A stretch of 53,182 nt of DNA from Xanthobacter agilis (GTDB taxonomy: Bacteria; Pseudomonadota; Alphaproteobacteria; Rhizobiales; Xanthobacteraceae), in NCBI RefSeq assembly GCF_021730435.1, contig NZ_JABWGX010000032.1:1-53182 (forward strand), read 5' to 3'. Of this stretch, positions 2,555 to 15,683 are shown piece by piece. The notes under the pieces were generated by a model. That model was not told the origin of the DNA and searched no databases. It worked only from the letters and a program-made list of their open reading frames with translations. How positions within the stretch are numbered: position 1 is the stretch's first letter; each line of letters starts with the position of its first letter. A program made the position numbers and the translations under genes.

Positions 2555-4030
2555 TCAGTCGGTGAAAAGGTCCTGCTCGCCCGCCAGCAACACCAGGTCG
2601 CTCAAGGTGAAGCGCTCGAAATCCAGGTCGGCGTCGGGGGCCAGGATGGAGCTGTCCGAGGCGCCCACCAGCCGCCACAGGGTTTCCGCCACGATGCGGC
2701 TGCCCACCACACCCAGGTGCCGCCCGGCGGGACCGTCCGGCGCACCCGCCTCCGCGAGCAGGTAGAACCAAAGGGGCGTCGCCGCGGAAAACGGCCGGAC
2801 CGCCGCCCGCTGGCGCTCCGGCAGGCCCGCCAGAAGCGCATCGCCAGCAAGCGGGGCGATTCCCAAGGTCCGCGCCACCGCCTGCCCGGTGGGCAGGCCC
2901 AGCCGGTAGCCGTCGAGCAGATGATAGGTGGCGATGGCCGCGGCGGTGCGCGGCGCGCCCGCCAGCTCCGTGTTGAAGGCCCGCGCCCGCTGCGGCGCCC
3001 GCCCTTCCAGGGGCAGGAAGCCCTCCCAGCCGATGATCCACTGTTCCGGCAGGCTATCCGGCCCCCGCCCCGCCGTGCCCAGCGCGAACCGCGTGACCAG
3101 GGCCCCGCGCGCGATCTGGCGGAAGCTCGGATTGTAGTCGTAGCTGGCCCGCATCATGGTCGGCGCCAGGGCGAAGGCCGCCGCGCAGAACTCCACCGGC
3201 ATGGCGCGCCCGCTTTCCCCCGCCCCGGTGAAAACGCGCGGCCCCCGCGCGGCGACATCGTCGAGCACGACCGGATCGCAAAGCTGCGCCAGAAGGTCGA
3301 ACAGCACCATCCATTGGTAGCGTTGCCGCAGGGCGCGCCGCGCCCCCTCGAAGCTGCGCCCGGCCCCCACCAGCGCATTGTGCGCCTTCAGAAAGGCCAC
3401 ATGGAGCTGCGAGAGGATGAGCAGGTCGTCATTGCGCGGATCGCCGCAGCGGGCGACGCGGTCACGCCCGGCATCCAGGCTGCGGGAGAGACGCGGCAGG
3501 TCGTTGCGATCGGCCTTGCGCGGCGGCCGTGGCAAGCCGCCGCCGCTGGACGCGACCGGGCCGACCAGCAGACGGGCGAGGTCCGCCGGATCCCGTGGCG
3601 CGTCATAAAGACTGTCCAGCTCCAGCCGGCCGGTCCGACGGTTGAACAGGCCCGACACATCGTCGCGCGGCACGAAATCGGCAGCGCGACCGTCGAGCAC
3701 GCCCATGCGTTCCATCACCAGATCATTGAGAACAAAGGCCAGCAGATAGGTGTAGCCCGCCGGCACACAGCCGTCGCCAGCCGAGCGCACCCGCGGTTCC
3801 GGCAGCGCCGCCGCAGGCTCGGCCATGGCCGAGCCGAGCCCAAGCAGCTCGACGATGGTGCGCCCGCCCTCCGGCAGCCGGTGCTCCGCCGCCGCCAGCT
3901 CGGGAAACATGCGACAGAAGCCCGCCGCGCTGGGACGCGCACCCGCCTTCAGGGCCATGGCCCGCACGCGCGCGCCGATGGCGTCGCGCTCGGCGGTCCG
4001 GAACGGGTCACGCCCGCGGCCCATGTCCAT
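2555..4030 (-). CDS. Animal-type heme peroxidase homologue with altered heme-pocket residues
   Basis: A 491-residue protein of the bacterial branch of the animal heme peroxidase family (PF03098). Family landmarks visible are RTGRLELDSLY (about 131-141), GDPRNDDLLILSQLH at about 196-210 with its catalytic-type Arg199, and KAHNAL. In relatives the distal histidine sits in a GQFxDHD-like segment. Here the matching stretch reads LLAFVLNDL, with Asn102 where His is expected. In relatives the proximal histidine sits in YRFGHSM; here it reads FALAPTMM, with Pro290. By this by-eye alignment both heme histidines are lost, so it may be non-catalytic or bind heme differently. No signal peptide is seen. 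Start at 4030: GGAGG (4037-4041) lies 6 nt upstream. Divergent from the LuxR-type gene at 4308. Confidence 0.82.
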   Translation of the reverse strand: MDMGRGRDPFRTAERDAIGARVRAMALKAGARPSAAGFCRMFPELAAAEHRLPEGGRTIVELLGLGSAMAEPAAALPEPRVRSAGDGCVPAGYTYLLAFVLNDLVMERMGVLDGRAADFVPRDDVSGLFNRRTGRLELDSLYDAPRDPADLARLLVGPVASSGGGLPRPPRKADRNDLPRLSRSLDAGRDRVARCGDPRNDDLLILSQLHVAFLKAHNALVGAGRSFEGARRALRQRYQWMVLFDLLAQLCDPVVLDDVAARGPRVFTGAGESGRAMPVEFCAAAFALAPTMMRASYDYNPSFRQIARGALVTRFALGTAGRGPDSLPEQWIIGWEGFLPLEGRAPQRARAFNTELAGAPRTAAAIATYHLLDGYRLGLPTGQAVARTLGIAPLAGDALLAGLPERQRAAVRPFSAATPLWFYLLAEAGAPDGPAGRHLGVVGSRIVAETLWRLVGASDSSILAPDADLDFERFTLSDLVLLAGEQDLFTD

Positions 4031-4113
4031 CCCCGTCCTCCACCCACCCGGTCCCGATGTCGTCCGCCCCGGTTGTTCCGGCGTCGATGAAGGCACCACG
4101 TCGCATCGCGCCG

Positions 4114-4137
4114 TTCATCCTCAATATGGGGGATGAA
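4114..4137. promoter_or_regulatory. 24-bp palindrome between divergent peroxidase homologue and LuxR-type gene
   Basis: TTCATCC (4114-4120) and GGATGAA (4131-4137) form a perfect 7-bp inverted repeat around a partly symmetric 10-nt core. It lies 84 bp upstream of the peroxidase start and 170 bp upstream of the regulator start. It is a good candidate operator for the adjacent HTH regulator, by position and symmetry only. Confidence 0.45.
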
Positions 4138-4307
4138 TCCGGCGTCCCGATTTTGCAGGTTGGACCCAGTGTGCGATGCTCGGTCAACGCGAGTGACGGC
4201 GCGCCGGCGTCGGGCCGGCGCACCGTGGCGCCGCCGTCCGCTCCGGCTGATCCCCCGCCGGCCCGGCCGCCGCGCCACCCGCACGAACCGGCAGGATTGG
4301 GGCAGGC

Positions 4308-5444
4308 ATGGACGATCTGGAGCGATATTCGCGGCTCATTCAGAACGTGTACGAGCTCTCGGGCGACCCGGACCAGTGGGCTCTGCTGCTGGCGGACATC
4401 ACCGACTTCCTCGACGGCCGCGTGACCCAGCTCGCGGTCTACAGCCTGAAGCCGGACCGGCGCCCCACCTGGCGCGTGTTCGGCCACGACCACCAGGACT
4501 ACCGCACCTTCATCGCCCGCCACGCGACCGAGGATCCCCGCCTGTCCTACATCCTCTCCAACCCCGGCCGCGTCATCTGCGCCGAGGACGGGGTGGACAC
4601 CGAGCAGTTCCGCGCCACCCCCTGGTTCCGCGAGGTGGTGGAGCCCATGGACCTCGAGCATTCGCTCGTGTCCTATTTCGCCCAGGAAGCGGACGTGATG
4701 GCCACCATCGCCTCCATGCGCGGACGCGAGATCGGCCCCTTCGGCGCGCGGGAGAAGCAACGCCTCGGCCTGGTGGTGCCCCACCTGCGCCGCGCGTTCG
4801 AATATTACGCTCTGCTCGATGAGGCGAAGGCCAAGGTGGCCGACATCGGCGCCGCCCTCGACATTGTCGACGCCGGCATTTTCCTCACCGACGGCGACCT
4901 CAACGTGGCCCATGTGAACCGCGCCGGCGAGACCCTCCTGAAGGGCGGGGACATCGCCGTGCGCGGCGGCCGGCTCGCCTTCAAGGATGCCCGCGCCGGC
5001 CGGCAGATGACCTCGGCCGTGACGCAGGCCCTGTCGGCCGCGCGGGGCGAGACCCCCCTGCCCCACGCCGACCACATCGAACTGCCCCGCCACGACGGCG
5101 ACGCGACGCCCTATCGGGTCTCGCTCCATCCGCTGCCGGCGGGCGAGGGCGCGGCCCGGCTGACGCAACGCTCACAGATCGCGGTGGTGGTGCGCGCACC
5201 CCGCCGTAGCGGCGCCGACGTGGCCCGGCGGTTGCAAACCAGCTTTCACCTGACCCCCGCCGAATCGGCGCTGGCGGCGGCGCTGGCGGCGGGCGCCTCG
5301 CTCGCCGACTATGCCCAGCAGCGCAACGTCGCCCTCTCCACCGTGCGCAGCCAGCTCAAGGCCCTGTACGAGAAGACCGACACCCGGCGCCAGGGCGAGC
5401 TTGTTGCCCACCTGCGCGGCAGCCTCGACCTCACCCTCGCCTGA
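4308..5444 (+). CDS. LuxR-family HTH transcriptional regulator
   Basis: A 378-residue predicted DNA-binding regulator. The C-terminal 64 residues form a LuxR/FixJ-type helix-turn-helix: LTPAESALAAALAAG (about 315-329), then a recognition region with STVRSQLKALYEKTDTRRQ. The N-terminal 300 residues contain no receiver domain phosphorylation site and no recognisable autoinducer domain. They include a PAS-like segment (about 175-260, 'DIVDAGIFLTDGDLNVAHVN'). This architecture is common among stand-alone LuxR regulators next to oxidative catabolic genes. It is divergent from the peroxidase homologue and 230 bp upstream of the RoxA-like gene, so it probably controls one or both. The inducer is unknown. 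Confidence 0.85.
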   Translation: MDDLERYSRLIQNVYELSGDPDQWALLLADITDFLDGRVTQLAVYSLKPDRRPTWRVFGHDHQDYRTFIARHATEDPRLSYILSNPGRVICAEDGVDTEQFRATPWFREVVEPMDLEHSLVSYFAQEADVMATIASMRGREIGPFGAREKQRLGLVVPHLRRAFEYYALLDEAKAKVADIGAALDIVDAGIFLTDGDLNVAHVNRAGETLLKGGDIAVRGGRLAFKDARAGRQMTSAVTQALSAARGETPLPHADHIELPRHDGDATPYRVSLHPLPAGEGAARLTQRSQIAVVVRAPRRSGADVARRLQTSFHLTPAESALAAALAAGASLADYAQQRNVALSTVRSQLKALYEKTDTRRQGELVAHLRGSLDLTLA

Positions 5445-5674
5445 CCGACATCGCCCGTCCCCGCGCGCTGCCCTCCCGAACGTCGCCGCCGGCCGCGCGC
5501 CGGAGACCAATGGACGCGGCCGGCGCGATACAACCTGGAACCCTTCTGGATTAGGCTGCGACCCGATCACACGCGAATCTCCATTCACGCGGCCGAGGAC
5601 GCGGCCTGCCCGCGGTCCATCCAGCCACGGCGCCCGCGGGGCGCAACAGCAAGAGCGACAGCAAAGGGGGCGAT

Positions 5675-7399
5675 ATGGTGGGGCGGACAACGTGGATCGC
5701 GCTCGGCGGTTTCACCGCGGTGGTGGCCTTGGCGGCGCTGACCGGGGCGGTGGTGCGCAAGGAGCCGGACGGCGCCGGCAAGCACACGGAAAGGGTCGTG
5801 CATCTCGACCAAGGCTGGTCGCAGACCCGGCGCGAGGAGTTCTATTACACGCCGCAGGGCAGCCAGCTCCTCCCCTATGCCTTCCTGAAGGCCCTGGAAC
5901 AGCCCGCCGGCACCGGACTGTTCCTCGACCCCGCTTATGTCGCCGAGACCGGCTACCTGCCGTCCGAAGGCCCCTCGGAACTCAACCCGGACGGCCTGCC
6001 CATCGGCTTCGCCAGGGACCCGCATCCCGGCGGCGCGTTCGGCCCGGCGGTGGGGCTCACCTGCGCCGCCTGCCACACCAATGACATCCGGGCGGGCGCC
6101 ACCCGCATCCGCATCGACGGCGGCGCCTCCCTCGGCGACTTCCAAATGCTCATGGCGCGGCTGTCCCAGGCGCTTGATGCGACGCTTGCCAACCCGGCCA
6201 AGTTCCAGCGCTTCGCCGCGCGGCTGAAGGCCGACCCCAAGGCGGTGCGCCCGGCGCTGGAGGCCACCGCCACCGAGCTCCGCCGGGTCAATGCCGCCGG
6301 CTGGACCCCCACCGCCTACGGTCGGGGCCGGATCGACGCCTTCGGCCACATCCTGAACGCGGTGGCGGCCGAAGCCCTGGGCCAGCCCGCCAACTTCCGG
6401 GTGCCCGACGCGCCGGTGAGCTATCCCTTCCTGTGGACCACGCCCGACCAGCGCTATGCCCAGTGGAACGGGGTGGCCGGCAACCCGATCGGCCGCAATC
6501 TCGGGGAAGTGCTGGGGGTGTTCGGGCACCCGTCCATCGGCAATGGCACGCCCGCCAGTTTCACATCGAGCGCCCTCGTCGAAAGCCTGAAGGCCCTGGA
6601 GGACTGGGCCGGCGCGCTGAAGCCGCCGCCGTGGCCGCGCGAGCTCGGCCGCGTGAGCCCCTCCCGCGCCAAGCGCGGCGCCAAGCTCTACGCGCAATAT
6701 TGCGCAGGCTGCCACGGCGGGCCGGACTACCCCCTCACCCCCGCCGCCGACACCATCGGTGGGCGGCAGTGGCTGGCGGTGGAGATGGTGGACCTCGCCA
6801 CCGTGAAGACCGACCCCAAGATGCTGCAAAACTTCGCCACCCGCACCGCGCAGACCGGCGTCCTCGCGCCCGTGTTCGGCGGCGCCACGGTGGTGCCGGC
6901 GGGCAGCGTGCTGCTGGCGGTGGTGGGCAACATCGTCGAGAACGATTTGCGCAATCTCGCCATCTCGGGGGATGCGCGGCTCGCCTATTACGGCTGGCGC
7001 TTCGCCCCCGGCAGCGCCAAGCCGCAGTCGGGCTGGACCACGTCGCTCGCCTACAAGGCCGGGCCGCTGGCCGGCGTGTGGGCCACCGGCCCGTTCCTGC
7101 ACAATGGCTCGGTGCCCACGGTCTACGACCTGCTGTCCCCGCCCCAGGAGCGCCCGCGGCGCTTCTATGTGGGCGACGAGCGCTACGACGCAAAAAAGCT
7201 CGGCTATGTCTCGGACGTGGACAAGGTGCCCGAGAAGGACCGCGCCGGACTGTTCCTGTTCGACACCACCCTGCCCGGCAATTCCAACTCCGGTCACGCT
7301 TTCCCGGACCCGTCGGTGGCGCAGCTCTCGCCCTCCGACCGCTACGCCATCATCGAATACCTGAAGGTGCTGGAGGGTCCCCATGCCGACGGCAAATAA
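5675..7399 (+). CDS. RoxA-like di-heme cytochrome c (peroxidase/oxygenase family)
   Basis: A 574-residue exported or membrane-anchored protein with one N-terminal hydrophobic segment (about 7-26) and two c-type heme motifs, CAACH at 130-134 and CAGCH at 343-347. The C-terminal half has motifs I associate with the RoxA/RoxB rubber oxygenase group of MauG/CcpA-related di-heme proteins: FLHNGSVPTVYDLL (about 474-487) and GNSNSGH (535-541). RoxA cleaves polyisoprene with O2, but many relatives have no known substrate, so periplasmic oxygenase or peroxidase activity is inferred. Length is somewhat shorter than RoxA. The start has a purine-rich AAAGGGGG upstream. The last 17 bp overlap the P450 start, implying translational coupling. 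Confidence 0.83.
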   Translation: MVGRTTWIALGGFTAVVALAALTGAVVRKEPDGAGKHTERVVHLDQGWSQTRREEFYYTPQGSQLLPYAFLKALEQPAGTGLFLDPAYVAETGYLPSEGPSELNPDGLPIGFARDPHPGGAFGPAVGLTCAACHTNDIRAGATRIRIDGGASLGDFQMLMARLSQALDATLANPAKFQRFAARLKADPKAVRPALEATATELRRVNAAGWTPTAYGRGRIDAFGHILNAVAAEALGQPANFRVPDAPVSYPFLWTTPDQRYAQWNGVAGNPIGRNLGEVLGVFGHPSIGNGTPASFTSSALVESLKALEDWAGALKPPPWPRELGRVSPSRAKRGAKLYAQYCAGCHGGPDYPLTPAADTIGGRQWLAVEMVDLATVKTDPKMLQNFATRTAQTGVLAPVFGGATVVPAGSVLLAVVGNIVENDLRNLAISGDARLAYYGWRFAPGSAKPQSGWTTSLAYKAGPLAGVWATGPFLHNGSVPTVYDLLSPPQERPRRFYVGDERYDAKKLGYVSDVDKVPEKDRAGLFLFDTTLPGNSNSGHAFPDPSVAQLSPSDRYAIIEYLKVLEGPHADGK

Positions 7400-8645
7400 G
7401 ACGCCCCGTCCCGCGACGCCCTATCTCGACCGTCTGGCGGCACTGGCGCCGAAGGAGCGCTGGCCGTTCGCCCGCGACCTCGTCACCCGCGACCCGCGCG
7501 GCTTCTTCGCCGAGTTGCGCGCCCACGCGCCCATCTTCGAGACGCCCGACGTGACTCTGCTCGCCAAGCGGGCCGACGTGATCGAGGCGCTGTCGGTGCC
7601 CAAGGTGTTCACGGTGGACCTCTACCGGCCCAAGATGGGCGACTTCATGCTGGCCCAGGATGAGACGGTGGTGAACTATCGTGACAAGTCCGTCATGCGC
7701 GCCATCCTGACCTGGGACGACCTGCCCAAGGTGCGGGCCCTGGTGGGCGAGGTGGCGGACGCCATCCTCGCCGGCGCGCCGGACGGGCGCATCGAGCTGG
7801 TGTCGCAATTTGCCCGGATCGTGCCGCTGCGCCTGGTGCAGCGCTATTTCGGCATCGAGGGGCCGGACGCGGACCTGCTGGACTGGTCCTATGCCAACCA
7901 GATGGACCAGTTCAACAACCTGCCCTATGACGGCCGCCCCGATGCCGAGGCGATCCACGCAGCCGCGGAAGAATCGCGGGTGAAGCTGCGGGCGCTGTTC
8001 GCCACGCTCATTCCGGCGCGGATCGCCGCCATCAAGGCCGGCACCGCGCCCGACGACAGCCTGACCCGCATCCTGAAGCTCAACCTGCCGGAGAGCGCCC
8101 ATTTCGGCATGGACCGGGTGGTCATCAATGTGGGCGGCCTACTCATCGGCGCCATCGAAACCACGGCGGAAGCGGTGGTGAACGCCCTGGCCGAGCTGTT
8201 CGCCCGGCCCGAGGTGCTGGCGGGCGCCCGCGCCGCCGCTGCGCGGGACGACGACAGCCTCGACGGCTATGTGTGGGAAGCGCTGCGCTTTTCCCCCATT
8301 GTCGCCTTCATGTTCCGCGAAGCGGCCAGCACCTACACCCTCGCCAAGGGCACCGCCCGCGAAAAGGTGATCGGCAAGGGCACCGTGGTGCTGCCGCTCA
8401 GCCTCTCCGCCATGTTCGATCCCGATTTCGTGGAGGCGCCGGAGGCGTTCCGCCCCGACCGGCCGTTCCACACCTATTTGCACTTCGGCTACGGGCACCA
8501 CGAGTGCCTCGGCCGCTATGTGGGCGCGGTGATGATCCCGGAAATGGTGCGGCGCGTGCTGAAGCGCCCGGCGGCGCGCCCGCTCGGCCCGGTGGACATG
8601 GCGGGCACGCCCTTTCCCCAGAGCTGGCCGCTCGCCCTGTCCTGA
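7383..8645 (+). CDS. Cytochrome P450
   Basis: A 420-residue soluble bacterial P450. The I-helix motif GAIETT (256-261) keeps the acid-alcohol pair Glu259-Thr260. The ExxR motif is E299-A-L-R302, a PERF-like FRPDR sits at 356-360, and the heme loop HFGYGHHECLG supplies Cys375 as thiolate ligand. All hallmark residues are therefore present and a monooxygenase-competent fold is expected; the substrate cannot be read from sequence. No ferredoxin or ferredoxin reductase gene is adjacent, so electrons must come from elsewhere or the enzyme may use peroxide. The ATG lies inside the end of the RoxA-like gene (17-bp overlap), which makes co-expression very likely. Convergent with the lectin gene. Confidence 0.94.
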   Translation: MPTANKTPRPATPYLDRLAALAPKERWPFARDLVTRDPRGFFAELRAHAPIFETPDVTLLAKRADVIEALSVPKVFTVDLYRPKMGDFMLAQDETVVNYRDKSVMRAILTWDDLPKVRALVGEVADAILAGAPDGRIELVSQFARIVPLRLVQRYFGIEGPDADLLDWSYANQMDQFNNLPYDGRPDAEAIHAAAEESRVKLRALFATLIPARIAAIKAGTAPDDSLTRILKLNLPESAHFGMDRVVINVGGLLIGAIETTAEAVVNALAELFARPEVLAGARAAAARDDDSLDGYVWEALRFSPIVAFMFREAASTYTLAKGTAREKVIGKGTVVLPLSLSAMFDPDFVEAPEAFRPDRPFHTYLHFGYGHHECLGRYVGAVMIPEMVRRVLKRPAARPLGPVDMAGTPFPQSWPLALS

Positions 8646-8690: not shown

Positions 8691-9407
8691 TCAGAACCGC
8701 CAGCGCTGGTCGGTGATGCTGCCGTTGGGATTGCGGCCGGAGGCCTCGCAGGTCCACAGCAGCAGCTTGGAGCCATCGGCGACACCCGGCGCGCCGGACA
8801 CGTCGATGCATTTGTTCGACAACTGGTTGACGATGAAGCCGTTGCGCAACACCCAGCGCTGATCCGTATTGGCGCTGGTTTCGCAATCCCACACCTGGAT
8901 CGCGCTGCCATCCGCCGTGCCCGGAGCGCCGGACACATCGACGCATTTGCCGGTGGCGACACTGCGGATCAGCCCGCTCTTGGTCAGCTCCCAGCGGTTT
9001 GCCCCGTTCATCTTGTCGTTGGCGCAATCCCAAAGGACAAGGTCGGTGCCGTTCGCGGCGCCGGGGCCGCCCGCCGTGACCACGCACTTGCCGGACAGCT
9101 CGTTGACGATCGGCTTGCCGCGCGGCGCCGGCGCCTGGGCCGAGATGAGGCAACCGTCGAGCTTGGCCGACCAGGTTTCCTCCGCGTCCTTCACCTTCGC
9201 CCGATCCTGCCCCGTGCACCAGTTGAAGTGCCCCTCCCAATTGAGGCCGGCGGGCGTGAACATGCTGCATTTGGCCTTCTGGCCGCGCACGGTCATGGCG
9301 ACCATGGCATTGGCATAAGGCTCGCAGACGCCCGGCTCGGCCGCCTGCGCGACCTCGAACGCGGGCAGCAGCAGCGCCGCCCCGGCAATGGCAATTGTCC
9401 TGAACAT
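8691..9407 (-). CDS. Secreted ricin-B-type beta-trefoil lectin protein
   Basis: A 238-residue exported protein with a clear signal peptide (about residues 1-22, ending AQA). After a roughly 75-residue cysteine-containing domain comes a ricin B-like trefoil (about 98-238). It has repeated units of the type GKCVDVSGAPG...DGS..QVWDC and QxW-like signatures NRW, QRW and QRW near 137, 183 and 235. Such domains bind galactose-type or other glycans. No catalytic domain is recognised in the N-terminal part. The frame is open upstream, but the ATG at 9407 is the one that gives the signal peptide. It faces the P450 gene tail to tail and the TetR gene head to head. Confidence 0.82.
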   Translation of the reverse strand: MFRTIAIAGAALLLPAFEVAQAAEPGVCEPYANAMVAMTVRGQKAKCSMFTPAGLNWEGHFNWCTGQDRAKVKDAEETWSAKLDGCLISAQAPAPRGKPIVNELSGKCVVTAGGPGAANGTDLVLWDCANDKMNGANRWELTKSGLIRSVATGKCVDVSGAPGTADGSAIQVWDCETSANTDQRWVLRNGFIVNQLSNKCIDVSGAPGVADGSKLLLWTCEASGRNPNGSITDQRWRF

Positions 9408-9749
9408 GGAGACCGCCCGTTCCCCGGTGGGAATATAAGCGCGGATCCGGCTGCGCGCGGCCATCGCGCCTCGCGGATGCGCCGGCACCTTCGCACCGGC
9501 GGCGCCGTCCGCGTGTCATCACCGCCGTCCAAGCTATAGCTTGTCTTGACGGTCCGGCACAGGGACCCGCGCCCGATCCCGCTCAGGACCCGAAACCACG
9601 GCCCAGTTCCACCGTCGGCGCCGATCCTCCGAACGCCGCGCCGGAGCGCACTGGCCGCAGCATCGAACGAACGCTCGCTTGACTTTTGGGCGGCCTCGCC
9701 TGTCATACATGACGGTTGCGTGGATCGAAGCCGCCGGGGAGACATCACG
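9408..9749. other. Divergent intergenic region, lectin/TetR (342 bp)
   Basis: No convincing gene is seen. It must carry the promoters of the lectin gene and the TetR-type regulator, and it contains the candidate TetR site at 9666-9679. No clear -35/-10 pair was identified. Confidence 0.5.
9666..9679. promoter_or_regulatory. Candidate TetR-family operator upstream of the regulator
   Basis: The near-palindrome CGAACGCTCG (9668-9677) lies 73 bp upstream of the regulator start. It shares A-N-CGARCGCTCG-N-T with a second copy at 15546-15559 ahead of the acyl-CoA dehydrogenase gene. Symmetry and recurrence suggest one regulator, probably the adjacent TetR protein, binds both. Confidence 0.4.
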
Positions 9750-10683: not shown

Positions 10684-11868
10684 TCAGACCCGCTCGACAA
10701 TGGCGGCGATACCCTGGCCGCCGCCGATGCACATTGTGATGAGGCCATAGCGCTGGCCGGTGCGCTGCAACTCATAGATCGCCTTGATGGCGAGGATGGC
10801 ACCGGAAGCGCCCACCGGATGGCCGAGCGCGATGGCGCCGCCATTGGGGTTCACCTTGGCCGGATCGAAGCCGAGCGCGCGGCTCACCGCGCACGACTGG
10901 GCCGCGAACGCCTCGTTCGATTCGATGAGGTCGATGGCGTCGAGCGGCAGACCCGCCTTGGCGAGGGCGATCTTCACCGCCGGCACCGGACCCATGCCCA
11001 TCTCGGAGGGATCGACCCCTGCGAGCCCGTAGGAGACGAGCCGCGCCATGGGCTTCAGGCCCTTGGCCTTGACCGTCTCGCCGGTGGCGAGGATCACCAT
11101 GCCGGCGCCGTCATTGATGCCGGAGGCGTTGCCCGCCGTGACCGTGCCATCCTTCTTGAACACCGGGCGCAGCTTGGTCATGTCGGCCACGCTCACCTCG
11201 GCGCGCACATGCTCGTCGGTGTCGAACACCACGGTGCCCTTGCGGGTGGTGATCTCCACCGGGGCGATCTGGTCCTTGAAATGGCCGGCGGCGATGGCGG
11301 CGGCGGCCCGGCGATGGCTCTCCACCGCGGCCGCGTCCTGGTCCTCGCGGGAGATGGCATAGCGCGCGGACACGTTCTCGGCGGTGACACCCATGTGGCC
11401 ATGGCCGAACGGATCGGTGAGCACGCCCACCATCATGTCCACCGCCGTGGTCGCGCCCATGCGCTGGCCCCAGCGGGCGGCGGGCATCAGGTAGCCGCCG
11501 CGGCTCATGCTCTCGGCGCCGCCGGCGAGGGCGATATCGGCATCGCCCAGCTTCAGGAGCTGGGTGGCGTTGACGATGGCCTGGAGCCCCGAGCCGCACA
11601 GGCGGTTCACGGTGAGGGCCGGCGTCTCCTGGGGCACGCCCGCGTCCATGGCCACGACGCGCGAGACGTACATGTCGCGTGCTTCGGTGTGGATCACGTT
11701 GCCCACCACCGCGTGGCCGACATCGGCCGCCTCGATGCCGGCGCGGGCGATGGCCGCCTTGGCGGCATGGGCGCCGAGGGCGGTGGGCGGGATATCCTTC
11801 AGCGCACCGCCGAAGTCGCCGATGGGCGTGCGGGCGCCGGAAACGATGAAGACCTCGGTCGTGCTCAT
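10684..11868 (-). CDS. Acetyl-CoA acyltransferase / beta-ketothiolase
   Basis: A 394-residue thiolase of the biodegradative/biosynthetic type. It cleaves 3-ketoacyl-CoA with CoA or condenses two acyl-CoAs. The nucleophile Cys91 lies in NRLCGSG, His350 in GHPVGASG and the acid/base Cys380 in CIGGGQG, so the catalytic triad is complete. Sequence character is closer to BktB/PhaA-type thiolases than to FadA. It follows the 3-hydroxyacyl-CoA dehydrogenase gene by 78 bp on the same strand and probably completes the same beta-oxidation sequence. It could also feed polyhydroxyalkanoate synthesis, but no phaB or phaC is nearby. Confidence 0.92.
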   Translation of the reverse strand: MSTTEVFIVSGARTPIGDFGGALKDIPPTALGAHAAKAAIARAGIEAADVGHAVVGNVIHTEARDMYVSRVVAMDAGVPQETPALTVNRLCGSGLQAIVNATQLLKLGDADIALAGGAESMSRGGYLMPAARWGQRMGATTAVDMMVGVLTDPFGHGHMGVTAENVSARYAISREDQDAAAVESHRRAAAAIAAGHFKDQIAPVEITTRKGTVVFDTDEHVRAEVSVADMTKLRPVFKKDGTVTAGNASGINDGAGMVILATGETVKAKGLKPMARLVSYGLAGVDPSEMGMGPVPAVKIALAKAGLPLDAIDLIESNEAFAAQSCAVSRALGFDPAKVNPNGGAIALGHPVGASGAILAIKAIYELQRTGQRYGLITMCIGGGQGIAAIVERV

Positions 11869-11946
11869 TGGGGGCTCCTCCGGGAACCTGTGGGCGAAGG
11901 CGTCGCCGCCCCGCGTCGGGAGAATGAAGCGCTTATGGAACCGATC

Positions 11947-13023
11947 TCAGGCCGCCGCCACCGGCGCGAACGCCGGCACCGGATGATGATCGCGGGCGCA
12001 CAGGGCCCCCACCGCCGCCTCGACGGCCACGGCACCGTAACGGTGCATGAGGGCGAACGGCCCCTCCTTGAACTTCAACGCCAGCACCGCGCCCTGATCC
12101 ACGGCCGCGGGCGCCGCCACCTGCTCGGCCGCGAGTTCCAGCGCCGGCAGCGCCAGCGCGCCCAGCAGGCGCCGCTCCACGAGATCGAGATCGGCGCCGG
12201 CCACGCGATCCTCCAGCGGCCAGTCGGCGCCGGTCTTGGCCTGGGCGTCGAGAAGCCGGCTCGTGGTGTAGAACGGCCCCAGCGACGCCAGATTGGTCAT
12301 GGCATGGGCCGAGACGGCCGGGCGGATCAGGTTCATCACCGTGAACGGCCCAGCCGCGGCGCCGAGGCGCTCCTGCGCCACCTGGTCCACATCCGCTGGG
12401 CCGGCGATGCCGTCCTCCACGATCCGGGTGGCCTCGTTGTAATAGGGGCAGAAGAAGCGGTTGATGGCAAAGCCCGGCCGGTCCTTGCACGGCAGCGGCG
12501 TGCGGCGGGTCGCTTCAAGGAAGGCCAGCGCCTGTTCCACCGTGGCGTCGGCGGTCGCCGCAGAGCGCACCACCTCCACCAGGGGCGAGACTTCCGCCGG
12601 GCTGAAATAGTGCAGCCCCAGGACCCGCGGCGCGAAGGAAAAGCCCTGCGCGAGATCACCCACCTTCAAGGCGCTGGTGTTGGTGGCGAGGATGGCGGAC
12701 GGGGCCAGATGGGCCTCCAGTTCCGTGAACAGCGCGCGCTTCACCGCAAGATCCTCGAACACCGCCTCGATCACCACGTCGGCGGCACGAATGGCGGAGA
12801 GCGTGGCCGCCGGTGCGAGACGGGCCAGGGCGGCGTCCGCATCGGCCTGCGACAGGCGGCCATTCTTCACCCAGCGCCCATAGACATGGGCCGCGCGCGC
12901 CTTCAGTTTGTCCACGCCGTCGGGCCTCTGGTCGAACACCAGCACGTCGAGCCCATGGCGCGCCGCGTCGAGGGCGATACCGCCGCCCATGAGGCCGGCG
13001 CCGATGACAGCCAAACGCTTCAT
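11947..13023 (-). CDS. 3-hydroxyacyl-CoA dehydrogenase, NAD-binding
   Basis: A 358-residue stand-alone dehydrogenase that oxidises 3-hydroxyacyl-CoA to 3-ketoacyl-CoA with NAD+. The Rossmann motif GAGLMGGG is at residues 8-15. ATNTSAL and LHYFSPAEVSPLVEVV carry the family's catalytic histidine, and the substrate domain contains KDRPGFAINRFF. Length exceeds the usual 280-290 residues through an extended C-terminal helical region, as in many alphaproteobacterial members. The ATG at 13023 gives [10 protein letters not shown]; an upstream extension of 17 codons is not family-like. A PsrA-like box lies 87 bp upstream. It probably forms an operon with the downstream thiolase. Confidence 0.92.
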   Translation of the reverse strand: MKRLAVIGAGLMGGGIALDAARHGLDVLVFDQRPDGVDKLKARAAHVYGRWVKNGRLSQADADAALARLAPAATLSAIRAADVVIEAVFEDLAVKRALFTELEAHLAPSAILATNTSALKVGDLAQGFSFAPRVLGLHYFSPAEVSPLVEVVRSAATADATVEQALAFLEATRRTPLPCKDRPGFAINRFFCPYYNEATRIVEDGIAGPADVDQVAQERLGAAAGPFTVMNLIRPAVSAHAMTNLASLGPFYTTSRLLDAQAKTGADWPLEDRVAGADLDLVERRLLGALALPALELAAEQVAAPAAVDQGAVLALKFKEGPFALMHRYGAVAVEAAVGALCARDHHPVPAFAPVAAA

Positions 13024-13109
13024 TCCCGTTCCTCCCCGCCGGCCCGGACGCCACCGGGCTCCGCCGCTTCGCACGCGGCCGGTCGCCGGCCACCGCCCCT
13101 AAATTGTAT

Positions 13110-13123
13110 CAAACGATTGTTTG
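13110..13123. promoter_or_regulatory. PsrA-like TetR-family operator candidate
   Basis: CAAAC-GATT-GTTTG fits the known PsrA consensus (G/C)AAAC-N2-4-GTTT(G/C). PsrA is a TetR-family, fatty-acid-responsive regulator of beta-oxidation genes. The site lies 87 bp upstream of the 3-hydroxyacyl-CoA dehydrogenase start in the 174-bp gap after the kinase gene. Which regulator binds here is unknown. Confidence 0.55.
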
Positions 13124-13197
13124 GTTCGCACCCCATACCCCTCCCCGCCGAGGCGCGCAATGGTTTGGGAGCGCCCGCAGGTCGCGAACCGCGCCGC

Positions 13198-14220
13198 TCA
13201 GCCCTCGGTCAGCGCCGCGGCGCGCGCCGCGAAGGCGGCGGCGAGGCGGCCGGTGTCCCCGGCATTGGCGGAATTGGCGTTGCCGGCCTTGGCGCGGGCG
13301 GCGATGCCCTCGAAGATCACCGCCCAGCGGAACAGGGCAAAGGCCATGTGGAAATCGGTGAGCGCCTGCCCATGGCGCGCCACGGCATCATATTGCGCCA
13401 CCACATCCCGCAGCTCCGGGATGCCGAGGTCTTCGAGATCCAATCCCGCGATGCCGCCATATTCGTCCGGTCGCGACACCCAGGCCATAGCGCAATGGGC
13501 GAGGTCCGCCAGCGGATGGCCAAGGGTGGACAATTCCCAGTCCAGCACCGCCACCACCTCGGGCTTCGTGGGATGGAACATGAGATTGCCGATGCGATAA
13601 TCGCCATGCACGAGGCTGGTGGTGTCGTCCGTGGGCAGGTGCGCCGGCAGCCACGCCACAAGGTGGTCGATATGGGCATCCTCACGGGTCTTGGAGAGCG
13701 CCCACTGCCGCGTCCAGCGCCCGATCTGGCGGGCGAAGTAATTGCCCGGCTTTCCGAAATCGGAAAGGCCCACCGCCGCGACATCCACATTGTGGAACGC
13801 GGCAAGGGTCCGCGCCATGGCGCCATACATGGCCCGCCGCTCCCCCGGCGCGACGCCCGGCAGGGTGCAGTCGTGGAACACCCGCCCTTCCACTTTTTCC
13901 ATGACGTAGAACGGCGTACCGATGATGTCCCGATCGGCGCAAGAGGCGAGCGCCGGCGGCACCGGTACGTCGGTCTGCGCCAGCGCGCGGATGATGCGGT
14001 ATTCGCGATCGACCGCATGGGCGGACGGCAGCAGATTGCCCGCCGGCTGCTTGCGCAGCACCAGGGCGCGGTCGTCGTAATCCACGAAATAGGTGGGGTT
14101 GGACTGTCCCCCGGCGATGGGGGTGAGGCGCGGCGCGCCGACAAGGCCCCCCACCTGCGCCTTCAGATAGGCATCGAGGGCGGCGGGATCGAAACCCAAA
14201 CGATCGCGCTCCAGGCTCAT
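13198..14220 (-). CDS. APH-family kinase (LvaA/ACAD11-kinase-like)
   Basis: A 340-residue aminoglycoside-phosphotransferase-fold protein (PF01636), almost certainly not an antibiotic enzyme. The catalytic loop HGDYRIGN and the DWE metal-binding motif in VVAVLDWELSTLGHP are intact, as is an N-terminal LRKQPAG segment with the likely ATP-binding Lys. Its ATG overlaps the acyl-CoA dehydrogenase stop by 4 bp (ATGA). In human ACAD10/11 such kinase and dehydrogenase domains are fused, and in Pseudomonas LvaA/LvaC they phosphorylate and rearrange 4-hydroxyacyl-CoA. This pairing suggests the same chemistry here. The small LvaB partner is not seen nearby. Confidence 0.86.
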   Translation of the reverse strand: MSLERDRLGFDPAALDAYLKAQVGGLVGAPRLTPIAGGQSNPTYFVDYDDRALVLRKQPAGNLLPSAHAVDREYRIIRALAQTDVPVPPALASCADRDIIGTPFYVMEKVEGRVFHDCTLPGVAPGERRAMYGAMARTLAAFHNVDVAAVGLSDFGKPGNYFARQIGRWTRQWALSKTREDAHIDHLVAWLPAHLPTDDTTSLVHGDYRIGNLMFHPTKPEVVAVLDWELSTLGHPLADLAHCAMAWVSRPDEYGGIAGLDLEDLGIPELRDVVAQYDAVARHGQALTDFHMAFALFRWAVIFEGIAARAKAGNANSANAGDTGRLAAAFAARAAALTEG

Positions 14221-15434
14221 GCCACGCCCCCCGCCACCGGCCAGCGCCAGAAATCGCCCTGTTCCTTGTCCAGGAAGCGGTTCAGCACCATCTGGTGGAC
14301 CTCGTCGGCGCCGTCCACCAGCCGCGCCTGACGGGCGTAGCGATAGACCCACTCCAGGACCGTGTCCTTGGAATAGCCGCGCGCGCCGTTGATCTGGATG
14401 GCGGTATCGGCCGCCTTGTGCAGCGTGTTGGCGGCCTGGATCTTGGCCATGGACACCTCCTTGCGGGCGAGGCCGCCGCGATCCAGCTCCCACGCCGCCT
14501 TCATCACCAGAAGGTGGCCGATCTCGATCTCCATGGCGAGCCGGCCCAGCATGAGCTGCACGCTTTCCCGGTCGGCCAGCCGCACACCGAAGCCGTGGCG
14601 CTCGGCGGCATAGTCGCGGGCGATCTCCACGCAGCGGGCGGCGAGGCCCAGCCAGCGCATGCAATGGGTGAGGCGCGCCGGCCCCAGGCGGATCTGCGTC
14701 ACCTTCAGGCCCCTGCCGACGCCCAGCAGAATGTCTTGCGGCGGAATTTCCAGCCCGTCGAACTCCAGCTCGCAATGACCGCCGTGCTCCTCCGGCCCCA
14801 TGATGGGAATGCGCCGCAGGATGCGCCAGCCCGGCGCGTCGCGATGGAAGGCGAAGGCGGTGAGGCCGGTGCGCGGATCATCGGACATGCGGGCGATGAC
14901 GGTGAAGTGGGCCGCCTCCTCCGCCCCGGTGATGAACCATTTGCGGCCATACAGGCGATAGGCGCCGTTGGGCTGGGCCTCGGCCCGGGTCAGCATCATG
15001 CCGGGGTCGGAACCGCCGCCGGGATGGGGCTCGGTCATGGCGAAGGCGGAACGCACCCGGCCTGCCACGATGGGGGCGAGCCAGCGCGCCTTCTGGTCGG
15101 GCGTGCCCACCGCCTCGAACATCATCATGTTGCCGTCGTCGGGGGCGGCCGAATTGAACACCACGGGGCCGAAAATGGAGCGGTTCATCTGCGGGTAGCA
15201 CACCGCCATGCCCACCCGGCCCACGCCCAGCCCGCCGCTCTCCCGCTTGAGCTGGAGGCACCACAGGCCGGCGGCCCGCGCCTTCGCGCGCAGCGCGGCC
15301 AGCAGGTCGGCGCGGATGTTTTCGTGCGCGTCGTAGGCCTGCGGATCGCCCTCGTGGGGCAGGATTTCCGCGGCCACGAAATCGGCGATGCGGGCGCGCA
15401 GCGCCTCAAGCTCGGGGGAGATGGCGAAATCCAT
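14217..15434 (-). CDS. Acyl-CoA dehydrogenase, ACAD10/11-LvaC-like
   Basis: A 405-residue flavoprotein of the acyl-CoA dehydrogenase superfamily. The N-terminal helical domain starts MDFAISPELEALRAR. The beta domain includes FAMTEPHPGGGSDP and KWFITGAE. The C-terminal helical domain contains the Arg/Gly-rich flavin-contact region ending in QINGARGYSKDTVLEWVYR. Related family members either desaturate acyl-CoAs or, in the LvaC/ACAD11 branch, convert 4-phosphoacyl-CoA to 3-hydroxyacyl-CoA. Coupling by ATGA overlap to the APH-type kinase favours the second role; that is inference. The start at 15434 fits the family N-terminus. A palindromic TetR-type site lies about 115 bp upstream. Confidence 0.88.
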   Translation of the reverse strand: MDFAISPELEALRARIADFVAAEILPHEGDPQAYDAHENIRADLLAALRAKARAAGLWCLQLKRESGGLGVGRVGMAVCYPQMNRSIFGPVVFNSAAPDDGNMMMFEAVGTPDQKARWLAPIVAGRVRSAFAMTEPHPGGGSDPGMMLTRAEAQPNGAYRLYGRKWFITGAEEAAHFTVIARMSDDPRTGLTAFAFHRDAPGWRILRRIPIMGPEEHGGHCELEFDGLEIPPQDILLGVGRGLKVTQIRLGPARLTHCMRWLGLAARCVEIARDYAAERHGFGVRLADRESVQLMLGRLAMEIEIGHLLVMKAAWELDRGGLARKEVSMAKIQAANTLHKAADTAIQINGARGYSKDTVLEWVYRYARQARLVDGADEVHQMVLNRFLDKEQGDFWRWPVAGGVA

Positions 15435-15545
15435 GGCGTCTCTCCGCTTTCGCCGGGGCGTTGCCTCGCCCCCGGCCGGCACCGGGAGGGCGCCCCGAGA
15501 CCTTCGGAACATCCCGCGGCGCAAAAGGCTCGCCCGTAAATTTCG

Positions 15546-15559
15546 AGCGAGCGCTCGTT
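15546..15559. promoter_or_regulatory. Candidate TetR-family operator upstream of acyl-CoA dehydrogenase
   Basis: The perfect palindrome CGAGCGCTCG (15548-15557), flanked by A and T at matching distance, resembles the site at 9666-9679 ahead of the TetR gene. It is followed on the plus strand by TTTTCTATAG, the most AT-rich stretch of this gap and a likely promoter core for the minus-strand gene. Confidence 0.42.
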
Positions 15560-15683
15560 TTCTATAGGAGCAAAGAAAGGCACGCAAGAGCCCGCCCCAG
15601 CCCACTCGGGAGAAGGCGGGCGACGATGGTGGCTTGCGGCAACGGCGTCCGGCCCCGCCAGCAACACCGGTCGCAAACGCAAA

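Follow-up and report, generated by a model that had tools for sequence, protein, structure and literature searches.

A linked RoxA-like di-heme protein and cytochrome P450 in Xanthobacter agilis and other bacteria: a possible two-gene lipid-oxidation unit

In Pseudomonas, the RoxA-like di-heme proteins PA2077 (oleate 10S-dioxygenase, reported to yield a hydroperoxide from oleate) and PA2078 (7,10-diol synthase) belong to the oleate-diol synthase pathway (PMC4496055), and a bacterial role of such lipids is known (PMC5155153). Fungal fusions of a dioxygenase with a cytochrome P450 (DOX-CYP) comprise linoleate diol synthases (LDS), epoxyalcohol synthases (EAS) and allene oxide synthases, while Nostoc possesses a 10S-dioxygenase with a separate catalase-related hydroperoxide lyase (PMC13049297). 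The locus described here lies in a stretch of 53,182 nucleotides from Xanthobacter agilis (assembly GCF_021730435.1, contig NZ_JABWGX010000032.1, positions 1 to 53,182, forward strand), referred to below as the window. It contains a homologue of animal-type heme peroxidases, a LuxR-type regulator, a RoxA-like di-heme c-type protein and a cytochrome P450, all correctly delimited by a preliminary description of the same sequence (Table 1). The RoxA-like and P450 genes are linked in many other bacteria, and the P450 is found with other partners in further lineages.

Both the Pseudomonas proteins (FadCcp) and the RoxA-like protein are large, exported, RoxA-related di-heme c proteins with a MauG-type motif (PYFHNGSVP there, PFLHNGSVP here), and each system places a dioxygenase, here a presumed one, next to another enzyme of its pathway. 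The second enzyme is a P450 here and a second di-heme protein there, as compared by description. The pair also looks like a split bacterial counterpart of the fungal DOX-CYP enzymes, with which it would share a heme dioxygenase coupled to a P450 and does share an HxC in the Cys loop; in addition, relatives of the window P450 adjoin cyclooxygenase (COX)-like proteins with YRWH, the motif in which PMC4496055 places the tyrosyl radical of fungal LDS. It differs from them in that the two proteins are encoded by separate overlapping genes instead of forming a single protein, that the fold of the presumed dioxygenase is of the di-heme c type, and that the I-helix carries ETT where Asn is predicted for LDS and EAS. 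The Nostoc system resembles the pair in having separate bacterial genes for a dioxygenase and a hydroperoxide-using heme protein, although its first enzyme is COX-like and its second catalase-related.

The RoxA-like and P450 genes and their linkage

The RoxA-like protein matches the NCBIfam model CytoC_perox (NF040606, di-heme-cytochrome C peroxidase) with 524.6 bits against a cut-off of 150 and contains two CXXCH motifs. RoxA oxidises rubber, and identity of the window protein as a rubber oxygenase was ruled out by the scores against the RoxA, RoxB and RoxC models, which are only 62-66 bits against cut-offs of 900-1000. Kinship with RoxA is nevertheless detectable: a profile of 14 homologues matches RoxA (PDB 4b2n) at E 4.6e-31, the CXXCH pair is common to both, and the window protein is the smaller of the two. 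In the uncertain alignment of this profile W264 stands at W302 of RoxA, which, like F317, is an aromatic residue near the first heme. Both RoxA residues are listed in Table 1 of PMC4496055. The His of the MauG-type motif (H476) and that of GNSNSGH (H541) are each invariant in 14/14 homologues. The marks of FadCcp were all found (HNGSVP motif, C-terminal axial His, two hemes, and export as suggested by CXXCH and a hydrophobic N-terminus), but they are common to RoxA as well and therefore do not single out FadCcp. When the best RoxA-like frame was taken at each of 64 related loci, two CXXCH motifs were present in 60 and a hydrophobic stretch before the first of them in 56.

The P450 gives a Pfam p450 match of 57.7 bits and has the heme loop FGYGHHECLG around the conserved Cys, EALR as its ExxR motif, and ETT in the I-helix. 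The Rox-linked P450s whose I-helix could be aligned retain G-[A/G/S/T]-[I/V]-E-T. The acid is lost in 16 of 17 DyP-linked P450s (GAIPT, GGPPQPP, GFVPT and others), the remaining one (L102) having VDTT; COX-like-linked P450s carry ETT or ETM and the lipoxygenase-linked P450 EGT. A bacterial CYP74-type enzyme is known from Methylobacterium nodulans. Membership of the window P450 in the CYP74 clan, which is marked by a nine-residue heme-loop insertion and an Asn in the I-helix groove (PMC8124189), was ruled out by the ungapped heme loop FGxGHHECLG and the I-helix GAIETT. The preliminary description had noted that no ferredoxin gene is present. None occurs among the named open reading frames (ORFs) of the window; the motif scan itself covered 80 related loci, and its seven matches among ORFs of 60-200 codons at most 5 kb from the P450 were all spurious by eye.

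The 17-bp overlap between the two frames, also noted earlier, is real, and a GGAGG within the end of the RoxA-like gene ends 6 nt 5' of the P450 start. As the frames overlap, the two proteins are probably co-translated. Overlaps of 4-17 nt, depending on the start chosen, occur in seven further loci of the genus. The peroxidase homologue, the RoxA-like gene and the P450 gene are clustered, by coordinates, in 12 of 14 Xanthobacter genomes. The regulator was confirmed between them in 7 of these 12, and in 8/8 Xanthobacter records of a scan of named genomes, a set that overlaps with the 7. Identities to the window proteins in 7 genomes are 56-60% (peroxidase homologue), 75-77% (regulator), 66-69% (RoxA-like) and 77-82% (P450). 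One of the two remaining genomes (G006) has only distant RoxA-like proteins.

In the scan of named genomes, 99 relatives were found by P450 alignment and the best 80 were kept. A RoxA-like gene lies at 64 of these best 80 loci and at 56 of the 72 outside Xanthobacter, figures that are biased towards RoxA-like neighbours since the DNA patterns of the scan were derived from Rox-linked P450s and only the best 80 of 99 were retained. In 53 cases out of these 64 it is upstream of the P450 on the same strand; measured between profile bounds, the median distance is 38 nt, and it stays within 100 nt in 41 cases. The preliminary description had made its proposal depend on conservation of the cluster elsewhere; besides the cassette in the genus, the RoxA-like/P450 pair was found in Pseudomonadota, Cyanobacteriota (Xenococcus, Adonisia) and one metagenome-assembled genome of Bacteroidota.

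Two further draws of genomes, by class and by order, were free of the Rox-derived DNA patterns, though their query profiles were built from P450s that belong to the genus or adjoin RoxA-like genes (A6 wholly, A2 in 9 of 10 rows). The P450 is present in 8 of the 385 genomes of the class draw at E 1e-60, and in the 7 others a RoxA-like gene (2) or a DyP gene (5) lies nearby. For scale, no more than 22 of the 385 genomes encode a RoxA-like protein at E 1e-30. Among the 397 genomes of the order draw, 21 contain the P450 at E 1e-50, with a RoxA-like gene in 5 of the 20 others (G421, G633, G513, G765 and G462, the first being common to both draws) and a DyP gene in 12. On plasmids, nine records with this P450 were found. 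A RoxA-like gene is near in five (H22 and H28 by annotation and profile; H21, H23 and H24 from coordinates), a COX-like gene is directly downstream in three, and one record starts there. In a quick P450 tree of 89 rows, from which L210 was left out as being from the same genome as L041, a supported branch sets the six DyP-linked rows apart from the rest, and the Rox label needs 12 changes; the linkage has therefore been gained or lost several times. Among the matches listed in the open-access literature, judged by titles and abstract openings, no published pairing of a RoxA-like protein or a DyP peroxidase with a P450 was found.

The exchanged partners belong to several families. As the DyP profile was built from six loci on which it was later used, membership was checked independently: NCBIfam Dyp_perox_fam is matched by every one of the 17 DyP-type neighbours (E 3e-17 or better), and 6 exceed its cut-off. 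A DyP gene occurs at 1 of the 80 loci of the named-genome scan. Three congeneric genomes (G521, G644 and G680) have P450 and DyP in one open frame, of 1417, 1410 and 1470 codons respectively and with no internal stop, and Pfam detected p450 and Dyp_perox_C in the two frames that were scanned whole. A COX-like peroxidase lies beside the P450 in four records (L197, L217, L218, L221), with YRWH in 4/4 examined, and the divergent neighbour of the Nitrobacter pair is a 967-residue COX-like protein with YRLH, exported by the look of its N-terminus. In L202 a lipoxygenase is encoded two genes downstream of the P450 (partial Pfam match of 39.7 bits, no NCBIfam match). Genes for oleate hydratase and for Tle1-like, LCAT-like and patatin-like lipases are found near some loci.

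A peroxidase homologue without heme histidines

The preliminary description had counted three hemoproteins at the locus, which stands for the RoxA-like protein (two CXXCH) and the P450 (heme loop) but fails for the peroxidase homologue. The latter has no significant Pfam match (An_peroxidase is below threshold, E 0.13), and a sequence search of the PDB with the family profile gave no peroxidase. Its AlphaFold2 (AF2) model (predicted local distance difference test, pLDDT, 83) is matched best by Foldseek to the TDX16 peroxidase 8s6c (E 8e-12), and also to myeloperoxidase, lactoperoxidase, COX-2 and alpha-dioxygenase (alpha-DOX). It shares the fold of the peroxidase-cyclooxygenase superfamily and differs from it in that both heme histidines are lost in 12/12 Xanthobacter copies; the fold of an animal-type heme peroxidase is present and its heme histidines are not.

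The residues were compared in an alignment of 32 proteins, comprising the 12 copies of the genus and 20 homologues from outside it. The duplicates L109 and L128 are absent from the peroxidase tree and tables, as is L015, which keeps both histidines, from the residue table. In the window copy A121, L124 and N125 replace the Gln, Asp and His of its relatives, and P313 replaces the proximal His. The distal Gln is gone in 11 of the 12 genus copies, and the Arg of the RNDE motif is retained in all 32 proteins. The sole exception among the 20 homologues is the non-Xanthobacter protein L110 (1384-3048), in which the proximal His is lost and the distal His kept. Judged by these residues, the peroxidase homologue is not a hemoprotein. 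Its ratio of nonsynonymous to synonymous substitution (dN/dS) is 0.15-0.20 in five Xanthobacter pairs, near the 0.07-0.21 of the other three genes, and the protein is therefore constrained. If this reading is true, the peroxidase-cyclooxygenase family would include in it a natural pseudo-enzyme maintained by purifying selection.

Outside Xanthobacter the profile of the peroxidase homologue found a match at 1 of 72 loci, that of Methylobacterium crusticola, where it has the same position and the cassette as a whole is the same as in Xanthobacter. This copy is intact and keeps both histidines (GQFVDHD, RFGH). It was considered as a living ancestor of the dead copy and rejected, as a quick tree groups it apart from the Xanthobacter copies; orthology with these is therefore not established.

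Proposed function of the pair

From the genes and their neighbours we infer a substrate, products and a hydroperoxide chemistry for the pair, and roles for the pseudo-peroxidase and the regulator. The RoxA-like protein, either held in the inner membrane by an anchor or exported across it, would add O2 to an unsaturated lipid, with a fatty acid as the most likely substrate, and so give a hydroperoxide. The P450 would take this product as substrate, as oxidant or as both, rearranging, cleaving or hydroxylating it. Use of the hydroperoxide in this way would account for the absence of ferredoxin and reductase genes next to the P450. As the neighbours of its relatives show, the partner of the P450 is exchanged in other lineages, where COX-like proteins, a lipoxygenase or a DyP peroxidase take its place. 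A RoxA-like lipid dioxygenase with a product-using P450 is the simplest account because of the linkage, the partner exchange and the lack of a redox-partner gene, and we regard a two-gene lipid-oxidation unit of this kind, with a swappable first enzyme, as having about an even chance of being correct. The analogy with fungal fatty-acid dioxygenases drawn in the preliminary description has gained in strength: P450 relatives adjoin YRWH COX-like proteins or a lipoxygenase or share a frame with DyP. The dioxygenase would, however, most likely be the RoxA-like protein and not the peroxidase homologue, whose heme ligands are lost. Ligand binding or regulation is the probable role of this dead peroxidase; most likely it would bind the lipid substrate or product and tune the system.

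A wider version, in which one P450 family serves a modular bacterial oxylipin system with at least four unrelated folds and the dead peroxidase of Xanthobacter is a lipid-binding regulator, is put forward only tentatively. The same reserve applies to the idea that the four folds (RoxA-like di-heme c, COX-like, lipoxygenase and DyP, the last also in the same open frame) are each functionally coupled to the P450 family. If true, the dioxygenase-P450 logic of fungal lipid mediators would be present in bacteria, including rhizobia and methylobacteria, in the form of a two-gene unit that is widespread and whose first enzyme can be exchanged. The same logic is followed, with other enzymes, by plant and animal lipid mediators, and many proteins now labelled di-heme cytochrome c peroxidase would receive a testable function.

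Several observations weigh against such a unit. The chief argument from sequence against a P450 acting purely as hydroperoxide isomerase is the retained acid-alcohol pair E-T, which also makes it possible that the Rox-linked P450s are ordinary monooxygenases with a reductase elsewhere; nor do these P450s have the CYP74 marks. In the uncertain alignment with RoxA, F317 stands at a Leu (L280), and a PDB search with the AF2 model (pLDDT 72) of the RoxA-like protein retrieved no entry at E 0.001, that of RoxA included. The RoxA-like protein, with its CXXCH motifs and N-terminal hydrophobic helix, and the P450, without a signal by eye, would lie in different compartments, as the preliminary description had proposed. 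A RoxA-like gene is lacking at 16 of the 80 loci of the named-genome scan, where a COX-like peroxidase (1), a lipoxygenase (1) or no recognised partner (14) was found; among the 14, the record L186 starts at the P450 and three loci retain a LuxR-type gene. Neither a RoxA-like nor a DyP gene accompanies the P450 in 3 of the 20 genomes of the order draw, one of them on a 3.5-kb contig. Some RoxA-like genes have no such P450 nearby and adjoin, among others, a catalase together with a patatin-like phospholipase, or proteases. In the genome nearest to the window by synteny (G004, L040), there is neither a P450 match nor a peroxidase homologue, and of the cassette only the RoxA-like gene (83% identity) is kept, in an inverted segment beside typA. 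To our knowledge, DyP peroxidases do not act as fatty-acid dioxygenases.

Among the alternatives, lipid-peroxide detoxification survives best, although we think it unlikely. The RoxA-like protein would be a true di-heme hydroperoxide reductase, as its NCBIfam label suggests, and the P450 a peroxygenase removing hydroperoxides, with DyP peroxidases fitting among the alternative partners. Other occupants of this position, the YRWH COX-like proteins and the lipoxygenase, would however produce hydroperoxides and not remove them. Somewhat less probable still is isoprenoid or terpenoid catabolism, with a polyisoprenoid cleaved by the RoxA-like protein outside the cytosol and the imported fragments hydroxylated by the P450 via a general ferredoxin. 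Sequence kinship with the rubber oxygenase RoxA and the ETT kept by Rox-linked P450s are in keeping with it, but the RoxA, RoxB and RoxC scores lie far under their cut-offs and the partners and neighbours are by family fatty-acid enzymes (YRWH COX-like proteins, lipoxygenase, oleate hydratase, lipases). Least probable is that the genes are tied by co-regulation only and act each in its own pathway, which would suit the solitary RoxA-like gene of G004 and the different compartments but not the overlapping frames in the genus, the linkage across three phyla and the single P450-DyP open frame of relatives.

Gene layout, regulator and neighbouring genes

Table 1. Features of the Xanthobacter agilis locus (positions in the window)
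Feature	Position	Strand	Evidence
Pseudo-peroxidase, animal-peroxidase/COX-superfamily homologue without heme ligands	2555..4099	-	Foldseek, residue table, dN/dS
Codon P313, position of the proximal heme-ligand histidine	3161..3163	-	His in 19/20 non-genus homologues, absent in 12/12 genus copies
Codon N125, position of the distal heme histidine	3725..3727	-	His in 20/20 non-genus homologues, Asn in 12/12 genus copies
Inverted repeat TTCATCC-N10-GGATGAA, candidate shared operator	4114..4137	.	Between divergent pseudo-peroxidase and regulator genes
LuxR-type regulator with PAS-like domain	4308..5444	+	PAS_4, weak HTH match, genus identity
RoxA-like di-heme c-type protein, probable lipid dioxygenase	5675..7399	+	CytoC_perox, RoxA 4b2n profile match
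CAACH, first heme-c attachment motif (residues 130-134)	6062..6076	+	Both Cys and His invariant in 14/14 rows
CAGCH, second heme-c attachment motif (residues 343-347)	6701..6715	+	Both Cys and His invariant in 14/14 rows
GGAGG, likely ribosome-binding site of the P450 gene within the RoxA-like gene end	7372..7376	+	Sequence
Reading-frame overlap of RoxA-like and P450 genes, 17 bp	7383..7399	+	Sequence
Cytochrome P450, probable consumer of the RoxA-like product	7383..8645	+	Pfam p450, linkage

For the peroxidase homologue, a start at 4030 is more likely than that at 4099. The regulator had been described as a helix-turn-helix (HTH) protein. It is of the LuxR type with a PAS_4 match of 26.7 bits in Pfam, while its C-terminal HTH matches NF047608 only weakly (20.9 bits against 200). 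A LuxR-type regulator stands beside the P450 in Methylobacterium too.

The inverted repeat between the pseudo-peroxidase and regulator genes is likely to be a shared operator. The CATCC and GGATG arms are both present in the corresponding intergenic gap of 7 of the 8 named Xanthobacter loci, one arm is present in the eighth (L139) and none in M. crusticola. The words GTCTTGCA and AATGCTGC follow the repeat in 7 of 10 gap regions, and the window has close variants of them. The pattern CATCCN{6,9}GGGGGATGA occurs once in its own 4.8-Mb genome, the reversed control giving 0. Exact matches in 15 genomes number 20, of which 5 are at the cassette and 15 elsewhere, one of the latter recurring near a small cytochrome c gene, and a regulon is therefore not established. 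This second CATCC-N-GGGGGATGA copy (L251 near 4097, L252 near 3691) is kept in Xanthobacter G002, G007 and G009 and adjoins the small cytochrome c gene in the two genomes inspected.

A gene for a ricin-type beta-trefoil lectin (8691-9488, 83 bits) lies directly downstream of the P450 on the opposite strand; its product likely has a signal peptide, by eye, and in G004 it adjoins the RoxA-like gene as well. Around the cassette in 7 other genomes of the genus, over 20-kb stretches, the flanking genes (typA, ion channel, lectin, TetR, thiolase and others) gave no match at E 1e-10 except typA in L047, and they are therefore regarded as context outside the unit. The beta-oxidation genes at 10684-15605, considered as members of the unit, were rejected by the same comparison.

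Some neighbours in other genomes may be added. An oleate hydratase gene lies a few kb upstream of the RoxA-like/P450 pair on a Bradyrhizobium plasmid (L220, 1-7239) and in G421 (L094, 2321-11695), with transposase genes near; the P450 of G421 is identical to that of two Bradyrhizobium records. In the single P450-DyP frames (L243 8583-12833, L244 5855-10084, L245 7816-12225) the two domains are about 500 residues apart, and the middle region is partly like small proteins, themselves without a Pfam match, encoded beside DyP in L101 and L103 (by eye). On pNGR234a (L213, 3784-9837), a catalase, a hypothetical protein, a RoxA-like di-heme protein and a patatin-like phospholipase are encoded in a row without a P450; this may be a further lipid-oxidation unit, with the catalase-related protein as its second enzyme. 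Two Rhizobium plasmids (L216 4671-11291, L222 4612-11266) carry a row of a regulator, a RoxA-like di-heme protein and two protease genes, the regulators being weakly related to the LuxR-type protein of the window (39 and 30 bits).

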